From Flavobacteriales bacterium (lineage in GTDB: Bacteria; Bacteroidota; Bacteroidia; Flavobacteriales_F; PHOS-HE28), in NCBI GenBank assembly GCA_017987115.1, contig JAGNUG010000008.1, forward strand, positions 1-60,920: a stretch of DNA of 60,920 nt, read 5' to 3'. A program made the position numbers and the translations under genes. Below the pieces are notes generated by a model, which had not been told where the DNA came from, searched no databases, and saw nothing but the letters and a program-made list of their open reading frames with translations. Of this stretch, positions 2,376-41,457 are shown piece by piece. The stretch's first letter is position 1, and each line of letters opens with the position of its first letter.

Positions 2376-2392
2376 TTTTTTCTAAGGGTTTG

Positions 2393-2400
2393 CAAAGGTA
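2393..2400 (-). promoter_or_regulatory. Bacteroidota -7 box for dusB
   Basis: TACCTTTG read on the minus strand, matching the TAnnTTTG consensus of the primary sigma factor of this phylum, 17 nt upstream of the dusB ATG. No clear TTG -33 box is visible at the usual spacing. Confidence 0.55.
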
Positions 2401-2556
2401 GGGAAGGCGGGTTAGGTGGTGAATGCTAGGTACAGCTACAGTTCGCAGTAACGTTTATCCAATTAGACCTTGCCTGAATAGCTGTTTATCAAAATAAATA
2501 ACAATAAGAACGATTAAAAGATCTTATATCCTACATTTACATCAAATAATCCCAAA

Positions 2557-3987
2557 ATGCTAAAATCCATTTCTAAAACCCAAGTTCTTGATCGCATCAG
2601 ATTCGAGAACCCTTGGTGGGTTGATGGTCATATTGAAACCGATTACAATGAAATGCCACGGAGATTATACTTCGACCTCTTCAAGCCGTTGGTATACGAG
2701 CGAGATGTGAGACGCGCAGTTGTGCTAATGGGCCCCAGACGAGTGGGAAAGACCGTGATGCTTTATCACATGGTTGAGGATATGATCCAGAATGGGATGG
2801 ATCCGAAAAAGATCATTTTCGTGACCATTGAGAATCCCATCTACAATAACATCTCCCTCGAGCAACTGTTCAGTTATGCAAAGGAGGCAACTGGGCTAAC
2901 CGATAAAACAGATTGGCATATCATCTTCGATGAGATCCAGTATTGCAAAGACTGGGAAGTCCACTTGAAAACACTGGTAGATAGTTATAGAAAGGACAAG
3001 TTCATTGTATCTGGATCCGCTGCTGCTGCATTAAAATTCGCAAGCAACGAAAGTGGTGCTGGACGGTTCACGGACTTCTTGCTTCCCCCATTAACGTTTC
3101 ATGAATACATAGCATTAAAGGGTCTGGACCATCTGATCAAACCGTACACCTTATCTTGGAAAGGGCAATTAGCAGAATTCTATAGCTCTTCCTATTTGGA
3201 TGAACTGAATAAGCACTTCATCAACTACATCAATTTTGGTGGCTATCCCGAAGTGATCTTCTCAGAAAAGATACAGGCAAACCCCGGCAGGTATATCCGA
3301 CAGGATATTGTAGACAAAGTACTGCTGCGTGATCTGCCTAGCCTTTACGGCATCAGTGACACACGTGAATTGAATTCGCTTTTCACGACCATCGCATATA
3401 ACAGCGGTAATGAATTTTCGCTAGAAACACTCTGCAAGCAATCACAGGTTCCCAAAGCCTTACTGAAAAAGTACATAGAGTATCTTGAAGCGGCATACCT
3501 CATTAAAAAAGTTAGAAGGATCGATCAAAGTGGAAAAAGATTCAAGAGGGACAATTTCTTCAAGATCTATCTCACGAATCCCTCGCTTCGGTGTGCCCTT
3601 TTCTCGCCCATATCAGCAACCGACGAGCTTATGGGTAGTCAAGTGGAAACCGCCGTCTTCGCGCAATGGATGCACCGCGACTGGTTTACCCCTTATTACT
3701 CCCGCTGGACAAACGGCGAAGTTGACATGGTCGGCCTCAGCGAAAAAACGCTAAAACCACAATGGGCACTTGAAGTAAAATGGTCCAACAGATACTTTGA
3801 AATGCCAAACGCTTTAAAGAGTCTCGTTAAGTTTTGTCTTGAAAACGATCTTGATTCTCCTATCGTTACCACAATAGACAAAGAAGGCGAAAAACAGTGC
3901 AAAGGGATCAACATTCAATTTTTCCCAGCAGCAGCCTACGCATACACAGTTGGCAGAAATACACTGAGTAAACTGAAGGCGAAATAA
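2557..3987 (+). CDS. AAA+ family ATPase with C-terminal DUF4143 domain
   Basis: 476 residues. Walker A GPRRVGKT at residues 59-66, Walker B HIIFDE at 121-126 and a VSGSAA sensor-like segment at 151-156 define the AAA_14 ATPase; residues from about 270 carry a winged-helix-like part and a DUF4143 region with a PD-(D/E)xK-like flavour (NGEVDMV near 388, then LEVKWSNRYFE near 407). Proteins of this architecture are common, patchily distributed and of unclear function in bacteria and archaea; a nuclease-related or toxin/defence-like role has been suggested from the fold but is not shown. It stands alone, divergent from dusB, and its base composition is AT-richer than the housekeeping genes. It marks the left edge of the accessory stretch. 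Confidence 0.88.
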   Translation: MLKSISKTQVLDRIRFENPWWVDGHIETDYNEMPRRLYFDLFKPLVYERDVRRAVVLMGPRRVGKTVMLYHMVEDMIQNGMDPKKIIFVTIENPIYNNISLEQLFSYAKEATGLTDKTDWHIIFDEIQYCKDWEVHLKTLVDSYRKDKFIVSGSAAAALKFASNESGAGRFTDFLLPPLTFHEYIALKGLDHLIKPYTLSWKGQLAEFYSSSYLDELNKHFINYINFGGYPEVIFSEKIQANPGRYIRQDIVDKVLLRDLPSLYGISDTRELNSLFTTIAYNSGNEFSLETLCKQSQVPKALLKKYIEYLEAAYLIKKVRRIDQSGKRFKRDNFFKIYLTNPSLRCALFSPISATDELMGSQVETAVFAQWMHRDWFTPYYSRWTNGEVDMVGLSEKTLKPQWALEVKWSNRYFEMPNALKSLVKFCLENDLDSPIVTTIDKEGEKQCKGINIQFFPAAAYAYTVGRNTLSKLKAK

Positions 3988-4040
3988 CCTCGGCTTGGTA
4001 GGTGAGTGGCGGCATTCGGCTTTTGAACCCACGCAGGGCT

Positions 4041-4319
4041 CTGTCGCGCATTTGGCAATGACCCTGCGCGTAAGGCCAGCGCATACCTGCTCAGTTAGTG
4101 CCGCGTGAATTGCTGAATGGTGCTATATTCAAGTTCTGGATCACGGAGATCTACACACATGGCAGCACACAAGCATAGGGTAATGGCCGAAGGGCATTGG
4201 ATCATTTGGACAGCTAACCAGGAGCTGGGCTTTACCACCCTTATTAGCACGTTATCACTAACTCCGATCTTCGATAAGTCCGGAAATATCAACTTCAGTT
4301 GGTTATACCTACTAGTTGG
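4041..4319 (+). repeat. Mosaic repeat copy A (modules 1+2+3)
   Basis: First of three diverged copies. Positions 4041-4250 match copy C (5598-5815) at roughly 90% by eye; the middle part (about 4155-4250, starting tacacacatggcagcacac) is shared by all three copies; the last part (about 4251-4319, ending tactagttgg) is shared only with copy B. The shared block ends in cccttattagcacgttat. An inverted pair TGCGCGTAAGG (4065-4075) / ccttattagca (4239-4249) could bring the ends of modules 1-2 together. With the flanks it fills the 429-bp gap between the ATPase and the next gene; no convincing coding sequence is seen there. Confidence 0.8.
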
Positions 4320-4416
4320 CAGCAATGCACAAATATCACATGAAAGCGTATATTCAAAAATCGATTGGTCTCAACGAGATGAGTGCAACTGACTAAGCAC
4401 TTGATCAATTAACAAA

Positions 4417-4782
4417 ATGGAACCGCCTACCAGTCAAGAACACCCAGTAAAGCGACAATCGCAAGAGCAAAGGCCAGCAGTAATAGCGGTAATTTGCATT
4501 CTGGGTTTCATTAGCACTGCATTTAGAATCCCCTTAATATTCTCAGACATAGCCGCACAGGTTGGTAATTGGTATCCACCGTACTTAGTCTTTTCAGGTC
4601 TTGTCGGCTTGGCCTGTTTCGCGGGCCTTTGGATGATGAAGAAATGGGCGGTATATGCTTATGCAACCTATGTAGTTCTAACTCATGTTGTTCTATTAGT
4701 AATGGGTGTCTGGAATGTTATGGCGCTACTGTCTATAGTTATCGTCGTTATTGCATATAAGTACATTGACAGAATGGATTAA
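4417..4782 (+). CDS. Small hypothetical integral membrane protein
   Basis: 121 residues, not recognised. A polar N-terminus of about 20 residues is followed by four hydrophobic segments (about residues 21-45, 52-70, 75-98 and 99-115), so it is predicted to sit in the inner membrane with both ends on the same side. Length and topology resemble many uncharacterised small polytopic proteins, which does not allow a function to be assigned. The ATG lies about 95 bp after repeat copy A, and repeat copy B starts 2 bp after the stop codon, so the gene is framed by repeats like a cassette. AT-richer than the flanking housekeeping genes. Real gene likely because the hydrophobic pattern is regular. Confidence 0.7.
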   Translation: MEPPTSQEHPVKRQSQEQRPAVIAVICILGFISTAFRIPLIFSDIAAQVGNWYPPYLVFSGLVGLACFAGLWMMKKWAVYAYATYVVLTHVVLLVMGVWNVMALLSIVIVVIAYKYIDRMD

Positions 4783-4784
4783 TA

Positions 4785-4950
4785 TACACATGGCAGCACA
4801 CAAGCATTGGGTAATGACCGAAGGGCATTGGGTCATTTGTACAGCTGACCAGAAGTTGGGCTTTACCACCCTTAGTATCATGTTATCACGAATTCCAAAC
4901 TTAGCTAAGTCCGGAAATATCACCGACTGTTGGTGATACATACTAGTTGG
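4785..4950 (+). repeat. Mosaic repeat copy B (modules 2+3)
   Basis: Begins at tacacatggcagcacacaag, directly after the preceding stop codon, and ends in tactagttgg, 10 bp before the next ATG. It has the module shared by all copies and the 3' module shared with copy A, but lacks module 1. A perfect 7-bp hairpin TATCACC/GGTGATA (4918-4924 with 4932-4938) occupies the same place as a different-sequence hairpin in copy A. The block shared by all copies again ends in CCCTTA...GTTAT. Confidence 0.8.
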
Positions 4951-4960
4951 TAATAAGTAA

Positions 4961-5554
4961 ATGAACCTAACAATCTTAGAGCGAGGCAACTATTTGTGTT
5001 ATCTAAACCAAGATTACACAGAGGACAATTGGACGTATTCTTGCGCCTTGACAGGTGGTGGTTGGTTTGGGTTTAAGAGTGCTTATTCAGCGAATACGGC
5101 CGCCATATTTGATCGAAGCAATGAAGTTGTAGGAAATTTGAAATTTCACTCTCGGCTGTTCAGGCCTCACCTTTTGAAAGTCGAACTAGTTGGCAAGTCT
5201 GAAACAATTACGGTTGAAGCGAAATTCTTAAAAAAGCTTGCCTACTTCCCATTCACTTTTGAATTGGACGGCAGATCTTATCGCCTAGACGCTTTTCGTG
5301 GACATTATCGCATTCTCTATGAAAACGACATTCAGGTAGCTTCATTTGACAAGAAAAAATTGACCTTCTTCGATCGCGACACGTTTGTAACACGTGCAGA
5401 AAATCACTTGGACGTTGTATTGCTTTTCGCACTGAGCATATTTGACGACATCTGGACAAGTAACGATGAAAGTACGGTCACGCTGGACGTTGGGAATGTT
5501 GGGTTTCCGAAGCCGCCTGACAACAAAAACTGGAAACCAAAACTAACTACCTAA
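4961..5554 (+). CDS. Hypothetical protein, possibly LOR/tubby-like fold
   Basis: 197 residues, not recognised by name. No signal peptide and no clear membrane helix. The sequence alternates short beta-like stretches rich in aromatic residues (GGGWFGFKSAYSANTAAIFD, FPFTFELDGRSYRLDAF, YRILYENDIQVASFDKKKLT) and ends with a hydrophobic helix (about residues 150-165, DVVLLFALSIFDDIW) and a polar tail. This layout is reminiscent of LURP-one-related/tubby C-terminal barrels wrapped around a central helix, but that is a weak impression and not evidence of function. It is framed by repeat copies B (10 bp upstream) and C (about 44 bp downstream). AT-rich relative to the genome average of the window. 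Confidence 0.65.
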   Translation: MNLTILERGNYLCYLNQDYTEDNWTYSCALTGGGWFGFKSAYSANTAAIFDRSNEVVGNLKFHSRLFRPHLLKVELVGKSETITVEAKFLKKLAYFPFTFELDGRSYRLDAFRGHYRILYENDIQVASFDKKKLTFFDRDTFVTRAENHLDVVLLFALSIFDDIWTSNDESTVTLDVGNVGFPKPPDNKNWKPKLTT

Positions 5555-5597
5555 AACAGCAAATATGAAACCAGGGCGTGAAGTGTTTACCTAAACT

Positions 5598-5815
5598 CCG
5601 TCGCGTATTTGGCGATGACCCTGCGCCTAAGGCCAGCGCATACCAGCTCAGTTAGTGCCGCGTGAATTGCTGAACGGTGCTATATTCAAGTTCCGGATCA
5701 CCAAGATCTACACACATGGCAGCACACAAGCACTGGGTATTGGCCGAAGGGCATTGGATCATTTGGACACCAGACAGGAGTTGGGCTTTAGCTCCCTTAA
5801 GCGCACGTTATGTGC
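5598..5815 (+). repeat. Mosaic repeat copy C (modules 1+2)
   Basis: Matches copy A from gtcgcg(t/c)atttggc onward at about 90% by eye and ends in cccttaagcgcacgttatgtgc, just 8 bp before the next ATG. TGCGCCTAAGG (5622-5632) and CCTTAAGCGCA (5795-5805) are inverted repeats matching at 10 of 11 positions, so the element can close into a long stem. The terminal GCACGTTATGTGC is itself a short palindrome around GTTAT. The CCCTTAagcGcaCGTTATG end is reminiscent of integron attC right ends, which is the basis of a hypothesis given under findings. Confidence 0.8.
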
Positions 5816-5823
5816 AAAATAAG

Positions 5824-6567
5824 ATGATGAGAAATATCTCCCTGATAATATTCACACTTGTCAGTTTGACAAGTATTGGTCAATCCATTGAGTCAATAAC
5901 CCAAAAAGTGACCGACAAGATCTGTGAATGCATGAGCGATAGCATTAACGTGTACTCTGACATTAGACCTGAGTTCAACAGATGCTACGACAAAGAGTTC
6001 AACTTCATTTTCAATATTGTGAATGCCGATGAACAGAAGGTACTTGTTCAAGAAGGTGCTATTCCAAAAATTAAAGATGGAATAGTTCCCTTGCTCAACA
6101 CGAGCTGCGAAAAGGTCAAGACTATCATAGAGTCTGACTTAGCCGAAGCAGTAGATTCCTCCGCAGCATCAAACGCAGAACCTTTTCCCACGAATTTCAC
6201 AGGAAAGGACATTAATAAATTAAAAAAGAGAGATGGAGAAATCGTAGCATTCAATGGACTTGTTACTCAAGTTCAAAGTGCTTATAAAGACAAGCCATAC
6301 TATCAAGTAAAACTAGAAGGAGGAAACACGATCTGGATTGCTTCTCTGGTCAATAGCGGATATGAAATTGAAGGTAAAATACTCAGGATCTTAGGCTATG
6401 TATCAGCTGTCGGGGACGATCCACATGCGAAAGAGCACAGTGAAGCTGGTTATCACATTCTAGCGTTTGGCGTTGTTGATATGGAAACCAAACAAATGGC
6501 AATGATGCCAGGTTCTGAGCTTCAGATAAAGGAATGGATGAATGGGTCAATTCCCAAGGCGCAATAG
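5824..6567 (+). CDS. Hypothetical secreted protein, N-terminal signal peptide
   Basis: 247 residues from the ATG at 5824 (an adjacent ATG at 5827 is equally possible). This start was chosen because it opens directly on a signal peptide (MMRNISLIIFTLVSLTSIGQ); the frame is open further upstream, but only through repeat copy C. The mature part begins with a cysteine-containing helical region (KICECMSD near residue 32, RCYDKEF near 50, TSCEKV near 93), followed from about residue 135 by a beta-rich part (GEIVAFNGLVTQVQSAYKDK ... ILRILGYVSAV) that looks OB-fold-like. No enzyme motif is seen; probable periplasmic or surface protein of unknown role. It follows repeat copy C, so it is another member of the cassette-like series. 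Confidence 0.75.
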   Translation: MMRNISLIIFTLVSLTSIGQSIESITQKVTDKICECMSDSINVYSDIRPEFNRCYDKEFNFIFNIVNADEQKVLVQEGAIPKIKDGIVPLLNTSCEKVKTIIESDLAEAVDSSAASNAEPFPTNFTGKDINKLKKRDGEIVAFNGLVTQVQSAYKDKPYYQVKLEGGNTIWIASLVNSGYEIEGKILRILGYVSAVGDDPHAKEHSEAGYHILAFGVVDMETKQMAMMPGSELQIKEWMNGSIPKAQ

Positions 6568-6650
6568 AAACCATGCACAACAAAGGGTATAACGCATACC
6601 CTGCGGGGTACACAATCTACACAGTCCGCTGTGCTTCATTATAAACCGAG
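6568..6650. other. Structured intergenic spacer with two short stems
   Basis: Between two unknown genes. Contains a perfect hairpin gggtat-aacgc-ataccc (about 6586-6602) and a small acag-tccg-ctgt hairpin (about 6621-6632), ending in attataaaccg just before the next ATG. It is not similar in sequence to copies A-C but sits in the same position relative to an unknown gene. No U-tract follows, so it is not a typical terminator. Confidence 0.5.
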
Positions 6651-7847
6651 ATGAGATTTTTAATCGAATATAAAGACACCAAAACCAAAGATGAGACCAA
6701 TCGAAATCTTAAGGTACTGGATACTTTCTTGAATTTTCACTTGATCGAATTATTTCACGGATGGACCTTTGAAAGCATCTTAATCAGATTCATCAATTAT
6801 CCTAAACCCAACAAGAAATTAAAGTGTAAGACCCTTTACAATACATGCGCGGAGATTGAAATTGCATCGAACTTTGACTCCAACTCTGAAATTTCTCTTG
6901 AACAGTTCTTGTTTGCTTTTGATCAAGTCAAAATAGCCGTACGTCTTGCCAATGAAATACAAACTGGATCCGGAAAAGATTACGACTTACCTAGGTTAAC
7001 CCAAGACATAGACTCTTTAAAAACCCCAACTTCTGTTGAAGAATTAATTGAGTTAGAGAATCTTTCAACTAATGATATGATCCGGGTCAAACGAGTCAAC
7101 GGTTTGATCAATTCTTGGAAGGAAAATCCGTTACCCCACAATAGAAGCCTAAAAGGGGTAAGAATTTATGACCAATTTGAAAGAACGGACTTGTGGCCTT
7201 TTGCCTATATATATTCAGAGCTTCTATCTAACCTTCTCAGGCATGCTGACATCACAACACCAGGCTATCAAGAAATCTACTTTACAATTGGGAAGAGTAT
7301 AGCCGAAGCTAAAAGAGATTTGGCACTCGAAACTTGGCATAAGTATACCTACTGCTCTCTGGACATTGCACAGTATAAAAACTCAGATGAACAAGTAAGA
7401 TCAGAGATGCTATTTAATAGCCTGAAAGAAGGTCTAAGGTTAATTGCGGATTTCGACCATTTGGATAAAAAGAAGATCGAAGAAGTAATAAGCTATATAG
7501 GGTCAAATGGTACTAAAACAGAATTAGTGTTCTTAAGTAAAAGCAAAGGCGATCTCAATGCCCAAATTGTTCATAGAATACCTGACGACCATAGAAAAAA
7601 AACGGCCTATTATTTAAAGCTATCCAATGCCAAAACAGGAGAGGCGGGGAAAGTAAAAATTGCTGAATTGGATTCTTTGTGGGCTCCTTACAATCTTGGA
7701 GCGATCAAGATCAAAAATTATCTTATTGCGATAGTTGGACGGAAAAGTATGAGAGCAGAAATGTCACGTGAAATGAATGATCTGCCAGAGCTATACGAAT
7801 TTGAAATTGACAAAATATTAAAAACGAAAGCACAACAAGGTGTATAG
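6651..7847 (+). CDS. Hypothetical protein, AT-rich orphan
   Basis: 398 residues, not recognised. No signal peptide and no membrane segment, so probably cytoplasmic. Rich in Lys, Glu, Asn and Ile; predicted mostly helical in the first 300 residues, with a Lys/Arg-rich beta-like C-terminal part (residues about 280-360, ending KNYLIAIVGRKSMRAEMSRE). No Walker, nuclease, HTH or peptidase motif could be picked out. The gene is clearly AT-richer than its surroundings, which suggests recent acquisition, and it is the last gene before the 122-bp repeat array. The start ATG follows the stem-rich spacer at 6568-6650. Its length and regular composition make it a genuine gene despite the lack of recognisable relatives. 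Confidence 0.75.
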   Translation: MRFLIEYKDTKTKDETNRNLKVLDTFLNFHLIELFHGWTFESILIRFINYPKPNKKLKCKTLYNTCAEIEIASNFDSNSEISLEQFLFAFDQVKIAVRLANEIQTGSGKDYDLPRLTQDIDSLKTPTSVEELIELENLSTNDMIRVKRVNGLINSWKENPLPHNRSLKGVRIYDQFERTDLWPFAYIYSELLSNLLRHADITTPGYQEIYFTIGKSIAEAKRDLALETWHKYTYCSLDIAQYKNSDEQVRSEMLFNSLKEGLRLIADFDHLDKKKIEEVISYIGSNGTKTELVFLSKSKGDLNAQIVHRIPDDHRKKTAYYLKLSNAKTGEAGKVKIAELDSLWAPYNLGAIKIKNYLIAIVGRKSMRAEMSREMNDLPELYEFEIDKILKTKAQQGV

Positions 7848-7854
7848 TGGATAT

Positions 7855-8606
7855 GTAAGCTTTGCTTGGGTGGAGCTCTGGGATTGACCTCCCTTTAGTC
7901 GGTCTTTCCCTGAGGGGAGGGCTTCAAGTGTAAAGCCGCACTCGCTGCGCTCGCCGTCTTTTTTCATTCAGACCCATTGCTCAAGCTGCGCTTAGAGCCT
8001 TCAAGTCGGGATTGCCGTAGGACGGCTATCCCTGAGGGGGGTGCTACAAGCGAAAAGCCTCACTCGCTTCGCTCGCCGTCTTTTTTCATTCAGGAGCATT
8101 GCTCAAGATTTGCTCAGAGCCTTCAGGTCGGGATTGCCGTAGGACGGCTATCCCTGAGGGGGGTGTTACAAGCGAAAAGCCGCACTCGCTTCGCTCGCCG
8201 TCTTTTTTCATTCAGGCCCATTGCTCAAGATTTGCTTAGAGCCTTCAGGTCGGGATTGCCGTAGGACGGCTATCCCTGAGGGGGGTGCTACAAGCGAAAA
8301 GCCTCACTCGCTTCGCTCGCCGTCTTTTTTCATTCTGTCCCATTGCTCAAGCTGCGCTTAGAGCCTTCAGGTCGGGATTGCCGTAGGACGGCTATCCCTG
8401 AGGGGGGTGCTTCAAGCGAAAAGCCGCACTCGCTTCGCTCGCCGTCTTTTTTCATTCAGGCCCATTGCTCAAGATTTGCTTAGAGCCTTCAGGTCGGGAT
8501 TGCCGTAGGACGGCTATCCCTGAGGGGGGTGCTACAAGCGAAAAGCCTCACTCGCTTCGCTCGCCGTCTTTTTTCATTCTGTCCCATTGCTCAAGCTTTG
8601 CTTGGC
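7855..8606. repeat. Tandem array of a 122-bp repeat, about six units
   Basis: The marker ttgctcaag recurs at 7977, 8099, 8221, 8343, 8465 and 8587, exactly 122 bp apart: five full units, a degenerate unit on the left (about 7855-7976) and a truncated one on the right. Each full unit carries a 25-nt hairpin (first at 8008-8032, GGGAT.GCCG loop CGGC.ATCCC) and a cactcgcttcgctcgccgtc tract followed by six T. Units 3 and 5 look the same and differ from unit 4, which suggests a 244-bp higher-order duplication. Together with its flanks it fills the roughly 800 bp between the orphan gene and tRNA-Ser; the open frames inside it are by-products of the repeat. Confidence 0.93.
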
Positions 8607-8625
8607 ATGGGTCTGAATGAAAAAA
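8569..8625. repeat. Long inverted repeat closing the 122-bp array
   Basis: Bases 8569-8587 and 8607-8625 are 19-nt reverse complements with two mismatches (TTTTTTCATTC...CCCAT against ATGGG...GAATGAAAAAA). The right arm is an inverted copy of the unit junction and is an exact complement of the junction at about 7962-7976, so the array ends in an inverted unit fragment. Confidence 0.75.
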
Positions 8626-8653
8626 GCCGAACACCTTAGGTGTTACGGCTTTT
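8620..8653 (-). terminator. Rho-independent terminator of tRNA-Ser
   Basis: Read on the minus strand: AAGCCGTAACACC, a short loop, then GGTGTTCGGCTT and a run of T. It lies immediately downstream of the tRNA. The A-rich 5' side could also stop transcription coming from the repeat array on the plus strand. Confidence 0.85.
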
Positions 8654-8657
8654 CACT

Positions 8658-8747
8658 TGGCGGAGAGAGAGGGATTCGAACCCCCGTTACCCTTTCGAGC
8701 AAACACACTTTCCAGGCGTGCGCCTTCAACCACTCGGCCATCTCTCC
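8658..8747 (-). tRNA. tRNA-Ser (anticodon GGA), CCA encoded
   Basis: 90 nt including an encoded CCA (8658-8660). The acceptor stem GGAGAGA/TCTCTCC is perfect, discriminator G. The anticodon stem CACGC/GTGTG encloses loop CTGGAAA with anticodon GGA at 8711-8713. A long variable arm and GGTTCGAATCC T-loop are present, as expected for a class II serine tRNA. Unlike tRNA-Gln in this window, the 3' CCA is in the DNA. Confidence 0.96.
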
Positions 8748-8804: not shown

Positions 8805-9833
8805 CTATACCGTGAGTTCACCCGCCAATGGAACAACGAATTGCTTAGCGACTTCGGCGTTCTTCGAATACTGGCCTAGCAGGAACATCAATTTGGTCAC
8901 TGCAGCTTCAATGGTCATATCCGCGCCTTCTACCATGCCCATTTTCTGGAATGCTTGGCTGGTGGCGTATTTGCCTTGTTCTACTCTACCCCCTACGCAC
9001 TGGGTAATGTTCACCAAGAGGACACCGCGTTGCGTGGCTTCTTTAAGGGCGCTGATGAACACCGGGTCCCGCGGTCCGTTCCCACTGCCGAACGTGGTTA
9101 TGATCGCTGCGCGAAGTCCTGGTTGCGACAAGGCATGGTGCACCCAGCTTGCCCGAATGCCGGGAAACAAGCGGATCACGGCCACCTCATTGTTGAACGT
9201 GGAATGCACTTTCAATTTGGAAGAACGGTGCGGCAAAATTGCCGATCGATCGTATTTGATATGCACGCCTGCCTCTGCTAGTGCCGGCCAATTGGGCGAA
9301 CGGAATGCCTCGAAGCGCTCTGCATGCACTTTCACTGTCCGGTTGCCGCGCATAAGACCATACTCGAAATAGACCGCGACCTCCGGAACCATTGCCCTGC
9401 CCTCTTCGTCCTTGGCTGCGGCGATCTCAATGGCTGTGATCAGATTCTCTTTGGCATCGGTGCGGATGGTGCCGATCGGTAATTGGGAACCCGTTAGGAT
9501 CACTGGTTTGTTCAAGCCTTCAAACAAAAAGCTCAATGCGCTGGCGGTATAGGCCATGGTATCGCTACCGTGAAGCACCACGAAACCATCATACTGATCA
9601 TAATTCTCACCAACGATCTCGGCCAAGCGCACCCAATGCTCCGGGTTCATATCGCTGCTATCGATCGGTTCCTCGAACGCGACCGCTTCAAGATCCACTT
9701 TGATGCGTTCCAGTTCTGGGACCTGCTCTTCCAAATGGGCAAGATCCATGGGCCTTAGTGCACCCGACTTGGGATCGGCCCACATGCCGATGGTGCCACC
9801 GGTATAGATCAGAAGAACTGCAGGCTTTTTCAT
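8805..9833 (-). CDS. ansA: L-asparaginase, type I (cytoplasmic)
   Basis: Hydrolyses L-asparagine to aspartate and ammonia. 342 residues, the usual length for the type I enzyme, with no signal peptide. The first catalytic threonine motif is YTGGTIGM (residues 10-17) and the second is VVLHGSDTMAYTASAL (about 84-99); the LTGSQLPIG stretch follows. The C-terminal domain with GSGNGP is also present. The start codon overlaps the stop of the upstream tatD gene by 4 bp (ATGA), so the two are translationally coupled; ansA and tatD pairs are seen in other Bacteroidota. Ends about 60 bp before tRNA-Ser, same strand. Confidence 0.95.
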   Translation of the reverse strand: MKKPAVLLIYTGGTIGMWADPKSGALRPMDLAHLEEQVPELERIKVDLEAVAFEEPIDSSDMNPEHWVRLAEIVGENYDQYDGFVVLHGSDTMAYTASALSFLFEGLNKPVILTGSQLPIGTIRTDAKENLITAIEIAAAKDEEGRAMVPEVAVYFEYGLMRGNRTVKVHAERFEAFRSPNWPALAEAGVHIKYDRSAILPHRSSKLKVHSTFNNEVAVIRLFPGIRASWVHHALSQPGLRAAIITTFGSGNGPRDPVFISALKEATQRGVLLVNITQCVGGRVEQGKYATSQAFQKMGMVEGADMTIEAAVTKLMFLLGQYSKNAEVAKQFVVPLAGELTV

Positions 9834-10720: not shown

Positions 10721-11704
10721 ATGAAGATCCTCGTACTTCGATTCAGTTCCATCGGCGATATTGTACTTACCAGTCCGGTGCTGCGCTGCCTGAAACAGCA
10801 ACTAAGTGATGCGGAGATCCATTTCGCGACCAAATCGGCCTTTGCGGATCTGGTCAGGTATAACCCGAATGTTACTTCCGTCCATGAGTTGAATGAGGAT
10901 ATCAACGCGTTGATCACTGCGCTTAAGAAGGAAAAGTTCGATGTCGTGATCGACCTCCACAACAACCTCCGGACCTCGCGGATCAAACGCGCATTGGGCG
11001 TTCCGGCACATAGCTTCCCTAAATTGAACGTGGAGAAATGGATCCTGGTGAACCTGAAACGGGACCGCATGCCCAAGATCCATATCGTGGACCGCTACCT
11101 AAGTGCTGTTGCTTCGCTGGGCGTGAAGAACGATGGACAAGGCCTTGATCTATTCATTCCTGAAGAACGCGCAGTTCCATTGAACGACATCCCCGCATCG
11201 CATCAGAAAGGGTACACGGCATTGGCCATTGGTGCAGCACACGTGACCAAGCGGTTGCCTGAGCATCGTTGGATCGAACTGGTACGATCAATAAAGGGCC
11301 CACTGGTTTTGATCGGAGGAGCCGACGATGCCCGCATTGCACGTGGCATAGCGAATGAAGTGGGTGGCCGGGCTTGGGACGTTACCGGGAAATATGACAT
11401 TCTCGGGAGTGCTTCTTTGATCAAACAGGCACGCAGCGTGATAGCTCATGATAGCGGAGCCATGCACATTGCTTGTGCGTACCGCAAGAATGTCGTGAGC
11501 ATTTGGGGCAATACGGTACCGGCTTTCGGGATGGGACCATACATCCCAACGGATCCCGAACGTGCTCATATTTCCGAGGTCCTTGGACTACCCTGTCGCC
11601 CCTGTTCCAAGATCGGTTACAACGATTGTCCGAAAGGTCATTTCAGGTGCATGGAAAAGCATGACCTACAGCGCATTGCAACTTTGGCCGCACAGATAAC
11701 GTAA
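10721..11704 (+). CDS. Glycosyltransferase family 9 (heptosyltransferase-like)
   Basis: 327 residues from the ATG at 10721, which opens on the family N-terminus MKILVLRFSSIGDIVLTSPV; the frame continues upstream without homology, so a longer start is rejected. The N-terminal Rossmann lobe carries FDVVIDLHNNLRTSRIK (about residues 71-87); the C-terminal lobe carries the donor-binding part IAHDSGAMHIACAYRKNVVS and a final NDCPKGHFRCMEKHD segment with cysteines. GT9 enzymes transfer ADP-heptose or related sugars to lipid A-core; with kdsB 4.4 kb away an LPS-core role is likely but the sugar is not known. Divergent from tatD; the small gene at 11714 follows after 9 bp. Confidence 0.9.
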   Translation: MKILVLRFSSIGDIVLTSPVLRCLKQQLSDAEIHFATKSAFADLVRYNPNVTSVHELNEDINALITALKKEKFDVVIDLHNNLRTSRIKRALGVPAHSFPKLNVEKWILVNLKRDRMPKIHIVDRYLSAVASLGVKNDGQGLDLFIPEERAVPLNDIPASHQKGYTALAIGAAHVTKRLPEHRWIELVRSIKGPLVLIGGADDARIARGIANEVGGRAWDVTGKYDILGSASLIKQARSVIAHDSGAMHIACAYRKNVVSIWGNTVPAFGMGPYIPTDPERAHISEVLGLPCRPCSKIGYNDCPKGHFRCMEKHDLQRIATLAAQIT

Positions 11705-11713
11705 AACCCGCTC

Positions 11714-12058
11714 ATGAGTTGGGATATTTACATTCAGGACCTACCAAGCGTCTCCTCGATCAAGGATGTTCCCACTAGCCATGTACCCAAGCCGATCGGC
11801 AAGCGTACGGACCTCATGGAAAAGATCTATGAAGCACTGCCAAAAGCCGAGGGCGAAGGAAGTGATTGGATCTTCTTACGTGATGAAGGTGTGGACATGA
11901 GCATCCAGTTCCACATGGAGAACCGGGATGACGTTCGGTATCTATTGGTACACGTTTTTGGTGGTGATCGAAGTTCGGCATACATTTCCACGATCCTAAG
12001 AAAATTGGAACTGCGTGCTTTGGACACCGAGACCGGTGAATTCTTCCAGACGAGCTAG
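11714..12058 (+). CDS. Conserved hypothetical protein
   Basis: 114 residues starting MSWDIYIQDLPSVSSI. Small soluble protein with no signal peptide and no membrane segment; the sequence pattern (short strands around DWIFLRDEGVDMSIQFHME and DVRYLLVHVFGGDR, then helices) suggests a compact alpha/beta fold. Proteins beginning with the same MSWD(I/L)(Y/F)(V/I)QD signature occur scattered in bacteria without a known function; this is recalled from family resemblance only. It is 9 bp downstream of the GT9 gene on the same strand and probably co-transcribed, convergent with the thioesterase. Confidence 0.8.
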   Translation: MSWDIYIQDLPSVSSIKDVPTSHVPKPIGKRTDLMEKIYEALPKAEGEGSDWIFLRDEGVDMSIQFHMENRDDVRYLLVHVFGGDRSSAYISTILRKLELRALDTETGEFFQTS

Positions 12059-34123: not shown

Positions 34124-35695
34124 TTACTCCACCACCACCCGTTCCGTACGCACACCCTCCGGATCGGTGATCTTAAGCAGATATATGCCTCTGCCGAACC
34201 GCGCCAGATCAACCTCCTCTGTAGTTGCGCCACTTGGCAACGGGCGTTGGTAGAGCAATTTGCCCATGCTATCGTAGACCGAGTAGAACGAATCCGCGCG
34301 CAAGGGATCTACGAAATCCACGGTGAAACGGCCGGTGTTGGGATTGGGGTAGATGCGAGGTTTGTATTTATTGACATACTGTGGCCTTACCGAGGTTATT
34401 AAACAGGCATCATACGTAGAAAATGGTGTAAGAGTAGTATCTTGAAAACTCAAAGGTCTTGCTTCTAAACCATCACTAGATGTAAGTGTAAAACTACTAT
34501 CTACTGGGAATAGGTCTTCTATTCCAATGGGATACCACTGAGCGCTACAAGGCATTGAACCATCTGAGGCTGTTTTGATCAAAAAAGGAAGACTGGAATA
34601 ATTACCGGGTAGATTTCCTGCTATATTGCCGTTAAAATAATAACCACCAGTGGAAGAGGCCATTAAGCTAGAAGTTCCGTACGAATAATTTGTAACACCT
34701 GTTGATCGTGTCCATAGCGTATCTCCATTCTGATCTGTTTTCATTAGGAATGGACGCATACCCAGCTGTGTGCGAATAGTAGCAAGTAAAACATAATTAT
34801 TATCAGTGGCCCATACGATTTTAGAAGAATGAATTGTTCTCCAACTGTGGTTACTTACATATCCTCGGCACCACTGCACTTCGCCCGTTCCGTTGAGCTT
34901 CATCATAAATAATTTGGCATTGAACTCAGGAGGAATTGGCAGATCAATATCAATACTATCTGTGTATCCAGTAATAATGAATGAGCTATCTGATTCAATT
35001 ATTACGTCGTTAATTATTCCGTTTGGTCTTATGTATGACTTACACCATAAAAAATTTCCTAGCGCATCTAATCTTGCTACAACTGCACCAGCAGTGTCCA
35101 TATTAATTCCAGCGATCAGATCGCCGCTTGGCAACTCTCTTATGAATTGGAAACCGCCATTGTTCGTAAAGCTTTTGCCCCAAATGGGTTCGCCAATTGA
35201 ATCGACTTTCATTGCAAAAAAAGAAGTTTCATAACCACATGCGATCACACTTTTATTAGCTGTTACTTCTAAACTACCGGTGGCATAATAACAACCTGGT
35301 CCAGCCAGTTCATAGCTTCTCATACTTTGCACGTGCCCAATTGAGTCAATTACTCCAATAACGGGAAAAGTCCCAAGTCCACTTGGCGATGAAGCACAAA
35401 CACTAACTCGGCCTGAAATGAAATTGAATTCGTTCATTGCCCGTTGCTGAATGGATCGGAGTGGCAATATTGAATCGGCCCAAAAATGATTCGTTTCAAT
35501 AACGTTCCCATTTAGGTCCATCAGAGAAATGCCGGTACCGCGAGATATATCCGTTACTACATTACCACTAGAGAGCTCGATCAAGTCTTTTCTAAATCCG
35601 CCCACGCCGTCTCCGTAAAGCTTGCCAAACGGTTCTTGTCCAGATGTAGTAATAACACTACCCCATAGTACTGCTATTAACATGTACTTTTTCAT
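34124..35695 (-). CDS. T9SS cargo protein, paralogue 1 of a tandem pair
   Basis: 523 residues. Signal peptide (MKKYMLIAVLWGSVITTSGQ). Body of about 430 residues with recurring beta-strand units of the kind (M.VDSIGEPIWGKSFTNNGG; FLMKTDQNGDTLWTRSTG; RLDALGNFLWCKSY) seen in delta-60/PQQ-like propeller repeats of secreted Bacteroidota proteins. The last ~85 residues are a type A T9SS sorting domain (RIYPNPNTGRFTVDFVDP ... GIYLLKITDPEGVRTERVVVE). The C-terminal stretch is much more similar to paralogue 2 (36055-37581) than the body, which is AT-richer. The start lies 3 bp from an orphan sorting-domain fragment on the upstream side. Confidence 0.85.
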   Translation of the reverse strand: MKKYMLIAVLWGSVITTSGQEPFGKLYGDGVGGFRKDLIELSSGNVVTDISRGTGISLMDLNGNVIETNHFWADSILPLRSIQQRAMNEFNFISGRVSVCASSPSGLGTFPVIGVIDSIGHVQSMRSYELAGPGCYYATGSLEVTANKSVIACGYETSFFAMKVDSIGEPIWGKSFTNNGGFQFIRELPSGDLIAGINMDTAGAVVARLDALGNFLWCKSYIRPNGIINDVIIESDSSFIITGYTDSIDIDLPIPPEFNAKLFMMKLNGTGEVQWCRGYVSNHSWRTIHSSKIVWATDNNYVLLATIRTQLGMRPFLMKTDQNGDTLWTRSTGVTNYSYGTSSLMASSTGGYYFNGNIAGNLPGNYSSLPFLIKTASDGSMPCSAQWYPIGIEDLFPVDSSFTLTSSDGLEARPLSFQDTTLTPFSTYDACLITSVRPQYVNKYKPRIYPNPNTGRFTVDFVDPLRADSFYSVYDSMGKLLYQRPLPSGATTEEVDLARFGRGIYLLKITDPEGVRTERVVVE

Positions 35696-36054: not shown

Positions 36055-37581
36055 TTACTCCACCACCACCCGTTCCGTACTAACCCCACCGGGGTCTGTG
36101 ATCTTGAGCAAGTACATGCCTTTTCCAAACCACGCAAGATCCACTTCGGCTGTAGTTGCGCCACTGGGCAACGGGCGTTGGTAGAGCAATTTACCCATGC
36201 TATCATAGACTGAGTAGAAGGTGTCTGCTAAAAGCGGGTCTTCGAAAGAGACGGTGAATTGGCCTGTGGTGGGGTTTGGGCGGATGCGGATCGGTTTTTT
36301 GGTTGAATAGGAAGGGATCTGCGTTATTGTACAGCCGTCGATCACGGTGACTGGATCGTAAATGGTGTCATGGATATACGCAGGATACTGGACTGCTCCA
36401 TCGATAGAAGTAAGCGTGAAGCTGCTATCGGTCGGGAATAGTTCTTGAACCTGTACATAAGCAACATGTTCATGTTCAGGGCATGGCAAATGGCCGAGGG
36501 AATCAGCCTTGAAAAGGAACGTCCCTAAACCAAAGCCTTGACCATTGTAAAGGAAACCTCCATCAGAGTGAGCAAGTAAATTGTATACTTGGTAATATGT
36601 GCCACCTACACCTGAAGCGCGTGTCCAGAGGGTATCGCCATTCATGTCCGTTTTCATAAGAAATGCCTTACCGAACCCGCCAAGTACAACGTAGCTACCG
36701 TCGAGGGTCTCTACGATTTTTGCAACCTCCGACGCCCATCCGCCCGAATGATCATACCCCTTGCACCACTGCACATTACCAGTGCCGTTCAGGCGCATCA
36801 TGAATAGCTTATTCCCGGGATCATTGTCCTCGTTCGTGTATCCGATCACAGTGAACGAACTATCCGATTCTATGCGGCAATCCCGAACAACACCGGCGGG
36901 TCGGATATAGGACTTGAGCCAGATGAAATTTCCATTCGCATCCAGACGGGCTAACGCCGCACCGCCATGAGCCATATTCAAACCGACCAACAGATCGCCA
37001 CCCGGTAGTTCTTTGACGAATTGAAAAGAACCAGCATTGCTGAAATGTTTGGCCCAAACAGAACCACCTTCATTTCCAACCTTCATTATAAAGGTGCTCG
37101 GGCTTATGTATTTCCTGCCCCAAACGACTGCGCTACCATCATTAAGGATCTCCAGATCGGCTGCCGTGTTGGTACATTCTGGTCCGTTCAGATCGTAGTA
37201 GGAGGCGGTAAGAATTGTACCTACTGAATCCATCTTTCCAACCACTGGATAATTCTCTGGATAAGGAGGATCAGTTGAACACGTGTCTTTACGATAACCC
37301 CCTACAAATGAGAATTCATTATCCGTGATCATCTTTACGGATTGCAATATCAAAAAAGTATCGATGGCATAACATTGTGTGTTCAAAATGTTGCCCATTG
37401 GGTCGAAGGTCGAAGTGCCCGATTGATATGCCATTCCAACGAATAGGTTACCACTTGAAAGTTCATTCAAATTGGCCTTCGCTGTGCCCCCACCATAATA
37501 GTATTTCTGAAAGGTTGATTGCCCTTTTGCAACTGGCCCTGTGAGTGCAAGCAGCGGAAAAAACAAGGCATATTTATTCAT
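36055..37581 (-). CDS. T9SS cargo protein, paralogue 2 of a tandem pair
   Basis: 508 residues with a signal peptide (MNKYALFFPLLALTGPVAKG). Same architecture as the gene at 34124-35695: SGNLFVGMAYQSGTSTFDP near the N-terminus, repeated beta units (VGKMDSVGTILTASYYDLNG; LMKTDMNGDTLWTRASGVGG), then a type A T9SS sorting domain (RIRPNPTTGQFTVSFEDP ... MYLLKITDPGGVSTERVVVE). Predicted to be a secreted beta-propeller-like surface or extracellular protein with no known catalytic motif. The sorting domains of the two paralogues are nearly the same, while the bodies are clearly diverged. Preceded at 3 bp by a second orphan sorting-domain fragment. Confidence 0.85.
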   Translation of the reverse strand: MNKYALFFPLLALTGPVAKGQSTFQKYYYGGGTAKANLNELSSGNLFVGMAYQSGTSTFDPMGNILNTQCYAIDTFLILQSVKMITDNEFSFVGGYRKDTCSTDPPYPENYPVVGKMDSVGTILTASYYDLNGPECTNTAADLEILNDGSAVVWGRKYISPSTFIMKVGNEGGSVWAKHFSNAGSFQFVKELPGGDLLVGLNMAHGGAALARLDANGNFIWLKSYIRPAGVVRDCRIESDSSFTVIGYTNEDNDPGNKLFMMRLNGTGNVQWCKGYDHSGGWASEVAKIVETLDGSYVVLGGFGKAFLMKTDMNGDTLWTRASGVGGTYYQVYNLLAHSDGGFLYNGQGFGLGTFLFKADSLGHLPCPEHEHVAYVQVQELFPTDSSFTLTSIDGAVQYPAYIHDTIYDPVTVIDGCTITQIPSYSTKKPIRIRPNPTTGQFTVSFEDPLLADTFYSVYDSMGKLLYQRPLPSGATTAEVDLAWFGKGMYLLKITDPGGVSTERVVVE

Positions 37582-39219: not shown

Positions 39220-41307
39220 ATGCGTAATTCCATTCTAGCTGCTTTGGCCGTGTTCTGCACTCCTGTTCTTGGTCAACAGGATTCCGAAGGGTTTCGTTGC
39301 AATGCTAACAATCAAGTAGAGCTGACCAAGCACTTGAACAATACGCCAGGTGCATTTGAGGATGCCATGCAGGCAAAAGCATTGTTGGAGACACGAACGG
39401 ACGGCTTTACAGCTGATGCAGAGCGGGGTGGCGACGAACCCTATATCGTCCCAATGGTATTCCACATCATTCACAACAATGGCGTGGAGAACATCACGGA
39501 TGCGCAGGTCTATGATGCCGTAAGGATCTTGACCAACGATTACACGAAACAGAATGCGGATTGGCCCAACGTACGCCCGGAATTCTTGGACATTGTTGCC
39601 GATGTGAACATCGAATTCCGTTTGGCCACGCTTGATCCTGAAGGGAACTGTACGAATGGAATAACGCGTACTGTTTCCACCCAGACCTATGACGGAGATT
39701 TCGATATGACGCAATTGATCCAATGGCCGCGTGATCAGTACATGAATATTTGGGTTGCCGCATCCGCAGGAAGTGGCGTTGCGGGCTATACGTACTATCC
39801 ACAGTGGTTGAATAATTGGCCCGAAGCGGATGGAATTGTCATCGGCCATAATTACGTAGGTTCCATTGGCACTAGCTCCATTGGCAGTTCCAGGGTCCTT
39901 AGCCATGAAGCAGGACATTGGCTCAACCTAGCACATTGTTGGGGTAGCACCAATGATCCCGGTGAAGAAGACAATTGCTTCAGCGATGATGGGGTTTCGG
40001 ATACCCCGAACACCATAGGATGGCAGTCCTGTTTCCTTCAAGCTGCATCCTGCGGGTCTCCTTTGGACAACGTGGAGAACTACATGGAATATTCCTATTG
40101 TGGCAAGATGTTCACGGTAGGTCAGGGGAACCGGATCATCGCAGCGCTTACGAGCACTATAGCACAACGCTCCAGCCTCTGGCAATCGAGCAATTTGGCT
40201 CAGACCGGAGTTACTACGGACCCTGTGCTTTGTGCAGCGGATTTCCTGCATGGCAATGCCGAGATCTGTACCGGAAGTACGGTCCAATTCACGGATATCA
40301 GTTACAACAACGTAACACAGCGCATGTGGACATTCCCTGGAGGAACACCAAGCACAAGCAGCGATGAACAACCCATCATACAATACGATGCGCCTGGTAC
40401 ATACCCTGTATCCTTGCAAGTGAGTGATGGCGTGAACGACCTCACCGTGAGCCAACAGGACCTGATCGTTGTCTATGCTGATACAGGCTATGCTGTACCG
40501 TTCAATGAAGGGTTCGAAGCACAAGCCAGTATACCGGATAATGAATGGATCGTAAGCGACGTTGATCAGAACGGAACATTCCAGCTTACTTCAAGTGCTG
40601 CGTCAAGCGGAGCGAACAGTATCATGCTCACCAATAATAGCAGCATGGTCGGCAGTCTGGACAACATCTACTCGCCCACCTATGACTACACCAATGCTGG
40701 AGAAGTGGTCATTTCCTTCCGATATGCTTTTGCAATGCGCAACGCGAATAACGATGATCGCTTACGATTCTACGTCTCCAATAATTGCGGAACGACCTGG
40801 TCAATGCGCAAGCAGTTGCGCGCCGGGATCGACCTTACTACGGGCGGTATCGTGGGTGGATCCTATGTTCCGAATGATCCAAGTGAATGGGGTTATGCTG
40901 TTGTGGACAACATAAGCTCCAATTACCACAGTAGTGATTTCCGGATCAGGTTCGAATTCCTAAGCGATGGTGGCAATAATGTTTACATCGATGACATAAA
41001 TCTATCAGGAACGCCGTTGGGACTTGATGATCTGACCACATCAGAAAACGAACTGCAAGTGGTTCCGAACCCTGCTACGGAAACCGCGTTCGTACAGTTC
41101 ACGCCATCCGGTTCAACTGCAATTGAGCTTTCGATCATTGACCCTACTGGGCGTCTCGTCAAGCATGTATTCCAAGGAAAACCGGCGATCGGCGTTCAAC
41201 GAATATCAATGCCCATATCAGAATTGTCAGCCGGGATCTACATGATCCGACTATCACAAGGTGATCAGGTCCATTCCGTGCGTTTTATCGTGGATCATAC
41301 GCATTGA
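39220..41307 (+). CDS. M43-type zinc metalloprotease, T9SS cargo, copy 1
   Basis: 695 residues from the ATG at 39220 (a TTG one codon upstream also opens the frame); signal peptide MRNSILAALAVFCTPVLG. A propeptide of about 60 residues is followed by a pappalysin-like (M43) catalytic domain with the zinc site HEAGHWLNLAHCWG (His229/Glu230/His233, His239) and the later ENYMEYSYCGKMFTVGQGNR Met-turn. A PKD-like domain (about 370-420, MWTFPGGTPSTSSDEQP), a lectin/CBM-like beta domain, and a type A T9SS sorting domain (VVPNPATETAFVQFTPSG ... AGIYMIRLSQGDQVHSVRFI) follow. Secreted or surface protease. Tandem with copy 2; a TATCTTTA box lies upstream. Confidence 0.92.
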   Translation: MRNSILAALAVFCTPVLGQQDSEGFRCNANNQVELTKHLNNTPGAFEDAMQAKALLETRTDGFTADAERGGDEPYIVPMVFHIIHNNGVENITDAQVYDAVRILTNDYTKQNADWPNVRPEFLDIVADVNIEFRLATLDPEGNCTNGITRTVSTQTYDGDFDMTQLIQWPRDQYMNIWVAASAGSGVAGYTYYPQWLNNWPEADGIVIGHNYVGSIGTSSIGSSRVLSHEAGHWLNLAHCWGSTNDPGEEDNCFSDDGVSDTPNTIGWQSCFLQAASCGSPLDNVENYMEYSYCGKMFTVGQGNRIIAALTSTIAQRSSLWQSSNLAQTGVTTDPVLCAADFLHGNAEICTGSTVQFTDISYNNVTQRMWTFPGGTPSTSSDEQPIIQYDAPGTYPVSLQVSDGVNDLTVSQQDLIVVYADTGYAVPFNEGFEAQASIPDNEWIVSDVDQNGTFQLTSSAASSGANSIMLTNNSSMVGSLDNIYSPTYDYTNAGEVVISFRYAFAMRNANNDDRLRFYVSNNCGTTWSMRKQLRAGIDLTTGGIVGGSYVPNDPSEWGYAVVDNISSNYHSSDFRIRFEFLSDGGNNVYIDDINLSGTPLGLDDLTTSENELQVVPNPATETAFVQFTPSGSTAIELSIIDPTGRLVKHVFQGKPAIGVQRISMPISELSAGIYMIRLSQGDQVHSVRFIVDHTH

Positions 41308-41457
41308 GCGTTCAGTCTGCGTATTCTGCACGAATGCATTCGTCAGGGTTTTGTAATTCCACTACCCTAATATCACCATGATCGTGTGAGACTGTGCAGA
41401 ATCAAGACCACCTGTAGTAATTTTACTACCCCCTCTATTGGACCAAAACCTACATTT

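Follow-up and report, generated by a model that had tools for sequence, protein, structure and literature searches.

Three repeats before orphan genes in a Flavobacteriales bacterium are very probably relics of an integron family whose integrase lacks the I2 domain

The I2 domain is regarded as the invention that enabled integrons and as the feature by which their integrase is defined, and clusters of attC sites lacking an integrase (CALIN) are defined by their attC sites. In integrons of the IntI type, the integrase gene adjoins attI, cassettes are inserted between G and TT (G/TT, the slash marking the crossover point), and small genes form an array with palindromic attC sites and complementary cassette ends. 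The extrahelical bases of canonical attC sites are contacted by the I2 helix and nearby residues (PMC3053210). I2 has been stated to be necessary for cassette capture and absent from other proteins (PMC7790495); earlier surveys and attC work picked IntI by this additional domain (PMC2426708; PMC8352920), and archaeal IntI was validated by it (PMC9668308). For an 'integron-like' subgroup of simple tyrosine recombinases, the insertion is reported as not fully conserved, yet is called essential for integron function; the available part of that paper describes no cassette arrays without the insertion (PMC8138268). Other layouts are known: the 'inverted' integrase of Treponema is transcribed towards attI and the cassettes (PMC3607928), and delta-attI cassettes of class 1/2 integrons consist of attI, an ORF and an attI fragment, with no attC of their own (PMC12901181). 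IntegronFinder 2.0 yielded one newly found complete integron in Bacteroidetes proper, in Salinibacter (PMC9024848).

The repeats examined here lie in a window of 60,920 nucleotides, the whole stretch of DNA analysed, which is contig C30 of a 3.73 Mb draft genome (G000) that is 96% complete. We conclude that the three copies, A, B and C, are very probably relics of an integron whose integrase family has no I2 domain. This family shares with IntI integrons all the features of layout listed above, and with the Treponema integrase its direction of transcription. It differs from IntI integrons in that the integrase has no I2/additional domain, carries an extra N-terminal domain and forms a separate clade, and in that the attC stems mostly have no extrahelical bulges. 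Like CALIN, the window locus holds captured genes with no integrase nearby; unlike CALIN, its units have attI remnants and no recognisable attC. The features of the locus, as we read them, are as follows.

2376-8657, no strand: species-specific insertion region, between dusB (1383-2375) and tRNA-Ser (8658-8747)/asparaginase (8805-9833)
4039-4117, + strand: 5' segment of copy A (part of module 1 of the initial annotation), a direct repeat of 5596-5674, with no integrase match
4118-4217, + strand: decayed integrase 3' end of copy A, best stretch 4142-4217, ending at the stop-codon position
4219-4315, + strand: attI remnant of copy A, crossover point G4315/T4316, aligning with attI of G022 and of contigs C17, C51 and C195
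4417-4782, + strand: gene 1, a captured cassette gene for a 121-aa membrane-protein-like orphan, whose end runs into copy B and whose own attC is gone
4783-4823, + strand: truncated integrase 3'-end remnant of copy B, an integrase-end match with 86% identity to copy A
4850-4946, + strand: attI remnant of copy B, crossover point G4946/T4947 by alignment
4961-5554, + strand: gene 2, a captured cassette gene for a 197-aa orphan, without attC
5596-5674, + strand: 5' segment of copy C, common to copy A
5675-5770, + strand: decayed integrase 3' end of copy C, best stretch 5699-5739
5775-5807, + strand: front part of attI in copy C, ending at a secondary point G5807/T5808, after which the cassette-like start TTATGTGCAA follows
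5827-6567, + strand: gene 3, a captured cassette gene for a 246-aa secreted-type orphan, with an ATGATG start (5824/5827)
6651-7847, + strand: gene 4, a 398-aa orphan after the array, whose membership of the array is uncertain

Pairwise alignment and self-BLAST find the three repeats where the initial annotation had placed them. Copies A and C are 90-93% identical, with 93% over 174 nt (4039-4212 versus 5596-5769), and copies A and B 86% identical over 168 nt (4152-4319 versus 4783-4950); the self-BLAST E values of 7e-75 (A/C), 2e-46 (A/B) and 5e-22 (B/C) put the similarity far beyond chance. The mosaic layout described earlier, with module 1 in A and C, module 2 in all copies and module 3 in A and B, is borne out by alignment, and the CCCTTA..GTTAT stretch noted in every copy closes a core of about 37 nt common to all three. 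The gap to the following ATG, given earlier as 8-95 bp, measures 97 bp for A, 10 bp for B and about 8 bp for C, and copy B begins at the stop codon of the preceding gene. As had been remarked, no integrase lies near the repeats, and genome-wide searches place none on this contig either. A search against Rfam returned nothing at copies A to C.

The nature of the repeat is apparent from a sister species (G022), in which it is intact on contig C32. There it comprises the final codons of a tyrosine recombinase of 397 aa, which ends in LRYIQTLLGHSSSKTTEIYTHVSTKALGKIRSPLEDLDI, followed by an attI of about 110 bp of non-coding DNA that closes with CAACCGACTAG/TT and is followed in turn by small genes in the same direction. 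These genes are cassettes with real attC sites: the first starts with TTGGGCGC and closes with GCGCCCAAC and then a palindrome ending at G/TT, and the second starts with TTACCCGC and closes with GCGGGTAAC and a palindrome. Copy A aligns with the G022 integrase gene end over 76 nt without gaps, with a score of 57 against a shuffle maximum of 22; the corresponding scores are 47 against 24 for copy C and, over a short stretch, 35 against 28 for copy B. Given these matches, decayed integrase coding sequence, together with the 5' segment, makes up module 1 and the first part of module 2; what remains of module 2, along with module 3, is, judged by its sequence, attI. ACTAG/TT is kept in the attI remnants of A and B. 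Copy C parallels copy A precisely as far as GCACGTTAT; what comes next is TTATGTGCAA, which also opens a cassette in a relative, G028. Being short and followed by such a start, copy C may record an insertion at a secondary G/TT. BLAST of copy C, proposed as a check, gave no match in 57 other genomes, because between species only the attI tail is conserved; that tail was found in G022 by pattern. In an observation separate from the repeat, the first G022 cassette (L036:1383-2201, minus strand, on C32) encodes a sul-like dihydropteroate synthase, which scores 352 bits with NCBIfam Sul3, below the cut-off of 475, and passes the cut-off of the general DHPS model.

The region that holds the copies is specific to this species. 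Much of the genus preserves the flanking order MacB-like, dusB, tRNA-Ser, asparaginase, tatD. Between dusB and asparaginase lie 6.4 kb in the window, against a gap of 209-790 bp in five relatives; in four others it measures 2.7-10 kb and holds different genes. None of these nine relatives has the genes between the copies at this chromosomal position, where the contents differ or are nearly empty. Genes 1 to 4 had no homologue in 1.3 Mb of compared sequence and no Pfam family over the cut-off. No own attC site was recognised for any of the three window units: their cassettes had no complementary end at one mismatch or fewer, with weak matches at chance level beyond that, and no complementary outer R''/R' boxes flank them. 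After gene 3 there is a possible, weak trace of a decayed attC box (GCACAAC, 6575-6581).

Across G000, attI occurs in at least nine copies on four contigs, and each copy examined stands directly before a different gene. The tail pattern AAGTCCGGAAATA..CTAGTT occurs eight times (three on C17, two on C30, two on C51 and one on C195), the ninth copy being copy C, which lacks this tail; among the 44 other genus genomes the pattern was found in G022 only, twice. The front part of the repeat is present on contigs C195, C51 and C152 as well, the GGTGCTATATTCAAG stretch being retained even in the most diverged copy, C152. Across nine copies from G000 and G022, identity is 84% over the 40 nt left of G/TT and 36% to its right, a sharp drop that, on sequence grounds, marks the kind of boundary an integron insertion point should have. 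On C17, cassettes with exact attC sites still follow attI (1228 to 1797 and 11405 to 11877), and cassettes with palindromic attC and complementary outer boxes are found on both C17 and C51. In the alignment, the copies with an integrase remnant lack the same internal stretch of the G022 sequence, and thus the integrase-attI pieces probably multiplied as a dead piece. Front loss with retention of the integrase end and attI is evidently recurrent, since other species of the genus (G063, G007, G031, G004, G032 and G012) likewise have short pieces of the integrase 3' end, often beginning at residue ~320-365 and reaching the end. G000 further contains a second kind of attI unit (C17 8979 and 11366, C51 4947; loci L100 and L099), in which attI is preceded by the repeated end of a fibronectin-like gene and by a GC-rich hairpin, with no integrase remnant and with the junction at the position of the integrase stop codon. 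Taken together, what the initial annotation had named as speaking against gene capture was not found: the repeat occurs elsewhere and precedes different orphan genes there, and gene order is not fixed in relatives. Its idea of gene capture thus stands, with A, B and C as parts of an integron-type system.

Could the copies still be working cassette ends? The succession attI-gene1-attI-gene2-attI-gene3 has its counterpart in the attI-ORF-delta-attI cassettes known to function in class 1/2 integrons (PMC12901181), and an attI fragment in place of attC would then make the units mobile if an integrase were supplied. We consider this unlikely: unlike delta-attI cassettes, the window fragments carry a decayed integrase end, the true crossover end is missing from copy C, and no attI copies in the genome have diverged further than A and B. 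Genome-wide searches, moreover, found no intact integrase in G000, which as a draft that is 96% complete could hold one in a gap. The window units are presumably inactive, a dead relic, and their decay is ordinary.

To ask how general the G022 arrangement is, we scanned GTDB genomes with the G022 protein, which returned at least 554 relatives, of which 80 loci were retained, nearly all of them from Bacteroidota by record title. As a scan for attC by stem shape alone proved too weak for such compact sites, we used an exact rule: the first 8 nt past a G/TT at most about 250 nt from the integrase stop must recur as their exact reverse complement followed by C and then by a palindrome ending at another G/TT. 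Downstream of I2-less integrases this pattern was found at 25/55 and 17/27 loci in two samples, against 0/5 XerC/D loci and none in shuffled sequence, the two controls used for the rule; about half of the sampled loci had no such cassette within the sequence compared. The method recovers class 1 attI and its first attC as a positive control. The upstream, divergent arm gave nothing, which is a weak negative control because it was empty even for six canonical IntI loci; shuffles and XerC/D are the strong ones. In G028, five cassettes follow one another in a chain. The same cassette is joined at G/TT to unrelated attI sites in different species (G060/G065 and G025/G023), the attI sides matching at background level and the first ~60 nt of the cassette sides being nearly identical. 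Relatives of the window locus thus have attI beside the integrase, insertion between G and TT, and cassettes closed by palindromic attC with complementary outer boxes, the last of which the three window cassettes lack.

The integrases of these loci have no I2/additional domain. The distance from GKxxR to HxLRH is 63-68 residues in 41 family members, nearly all with the cassette signature, compared with 105 in seven IntI (the class 1 enzyme plus six representatives of other classes within the phylum) and 70-71 in XerC/D. In the predicted structure (mean pLDDT 88.8) helix 289-302 runs into the next strands with no inserted helix, and the best solved match is an integron integrase, 2A3V; relative to IntI, there is an extra N-terminal domain. 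Five residues (R253, K278, H342, R345 and Y377) do not vary among 45 sequences, and H368 hardly does; we take these six to be the catalytic residues, by the known tyrosine-recombinase motif. In a tree the family, IntI and Xer stand apart (98/91, 100/99 and 100/99), with long branches flagged by the program. The G022 integrase reaches 201 bits with TIGR02249, short of its cut-off of 265, and 228 bits with NCBIfam NF040815, over the cut-off of 220. The latter, an XerA-type model named 'site-specific tyrosine recombinase/integron integrase', covers the core and catalytic part (residues 128-386) without the N-terminal domain, and its name does not distinguish resolvases from cassette integrases. 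A near-full or partial copy of the I2-less integrase is present, besides XerC and XerD, in more than half of the 45 genus genomes; none of the 45 has a canonical IntI over the curated cut-off. In a phylum sample of 296 genomes, canonical IntI passed the cut-off in 85, just one of them in the window's class; the I2-less model (E<1e-90) likewise matched 85, of which 38 are in that class, some of the weaker matches having no N-terminal domain and possibly being other recombinases. One relative, with 41% identity over nearly its full length, lies on a plasmid of Pontibacter kalidii (NZ_CP111080.1, 26113-27258), and the system may thus be mobile.

These data bear on whether the I2-less recombinase is an Xer-like passenger beside arrays built by a canonical IntI elsewhere, as the reported need for I2 in cassette capture (PMC7790495) would imply. 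Such a role appears quite improbable. In many unrelated Bacteroidota, cassettes start just past the I2-less gene, on its downstream side every time and never on the upstream one; the clade is separate from Xer, beside whose five sampled loci no cassettes were found; no genus genome has a canonical IntI over the cut-off; and of the genomes behind 15 I2-less regions only G073 and G358 are in the canonical list. These two (loci L253, L265 and L274) have a canonical IntI and an I2-less integrase in one genome.

The attC sites likewise differ from those near canonical IntI. Within the first 12 columns, 12/49 distinct stems near I2-less integrases were bulged, against 29/30 near canonical IntI (Fisher P=6e-11), with one counting procedure for both sets and unique sites only, as counting both strands would double-count cassettes. 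Bulges occur in 4/18 stems of the genus and 0/6 of G000, compared with 4/4 class 1 attC sites examined. At sites near I2-less integrases, the commonest spacing is 1 nt behind AAC and 5 nt ahead of G/TT, and these unequal spacers could conceivably take over the choice of strand. That I2 and bulges are missing together argues for a link between the two.

With real attC sites at hand in G022, the initial annotation's proposal that A, B and C are themselves attC sites, or attC-like hairpins of a canonical integron, can be rejected as highly improbable. The repeats do sit between small orphan genes and end in GTT, but they match an integrase gene end and attI, the intact G022 locus already refutes the proposal, no AAC box or complementary cassette end is found, and the genome has no canonical IntI. 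An inverted pair near the ends of copy C that had been taken to recall attC is present (TGCGCCTAAGG and CCTTAAGCGCA, 10 of 11 bases), but its flanks are not attC-like and lack an AAC box, and we therefore give it no weight. Barely credible, too, is a dispersed regulatory or MITE-like element without a part in recombination that by chance precedes horizontally acquired genes: the copies are just upstream of genes and GGTGCTATATTCAAG persists even in the C152 copy as a promoter might, but they are homologous to an integrase gene end, have a right boundary exactly at G/TT and have an intact integrase-attI counterpart, no terminal inverted repeats were found, and by eye GGTGCTATATTCAAG has no convincing -33 box at the right spacing.

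We thus return to an integron without I2. In the living system, as relatives show it, a tyrosine recombinase gene points towards its own array, with attI some 40-200 bp past the integrase stop and cassettes inserted there between G and TT. Each cassette is a gene plus a palindromic attC whose outer box exactly complements the first bases of the cassette; the integrase has the extra N-terminal domain and no I2/additional domain, and most of the attC hairpins are without extrahelical bases. The I2-less recombinase itself presumably performs the capture, and attC is likely to act as a folded single strand. In G000, integrase 3' ends joined to attI are scattered over several loci, and a captured orphan gene comes after each of them; the window has three of these units in tandem, with the cassette attC lost and copy B fused to the end of gene 1.

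More broadly, we consider it probable that a second integron system extends across the phylum Bacteroidota and that, in it, bulge-less attC hairpins are recombined by an I2-less integrase carrying a DUF5710-like N-terminal domain. On this account capture needs no I2, I2 and extrahelical bases were gained (or lost) together, and surveys that rely on the additional domain overlook the system. Given the role that we ascribe to its integrase, the family contradicts the view that I2 is required for cassette capture. In open-licence PubMed Central papers (a search outside which preprints and subscription journals fall) we found no description of I2-less integrons; the family is apparently undescribed, and it is widespread in Bacteroidota. 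A common clade with the full cassette signature and no I2 makes the origin of integrons directly testable, as it offers the same reaction with and without I2 and with and without extrahelical bases. It could explain the near-absence of complete integrons from the class Bacteroidia in surveys, and it opens to study a large pool of captured genes, the sul-like gene included.

The window contains other repeats besides A, B and C. Between gene 4 and tRNA-Ser lies a tandem array (7907-8603) of 5.7 copies of a 122-nt unit with 93% matches. Farther along, two copies of about 235 bp form a diverged duplication (34124-34357 and 36055-36288, 80%), and in 39455-43232 several segments recur at a constant offset near 2235-2241 bp.
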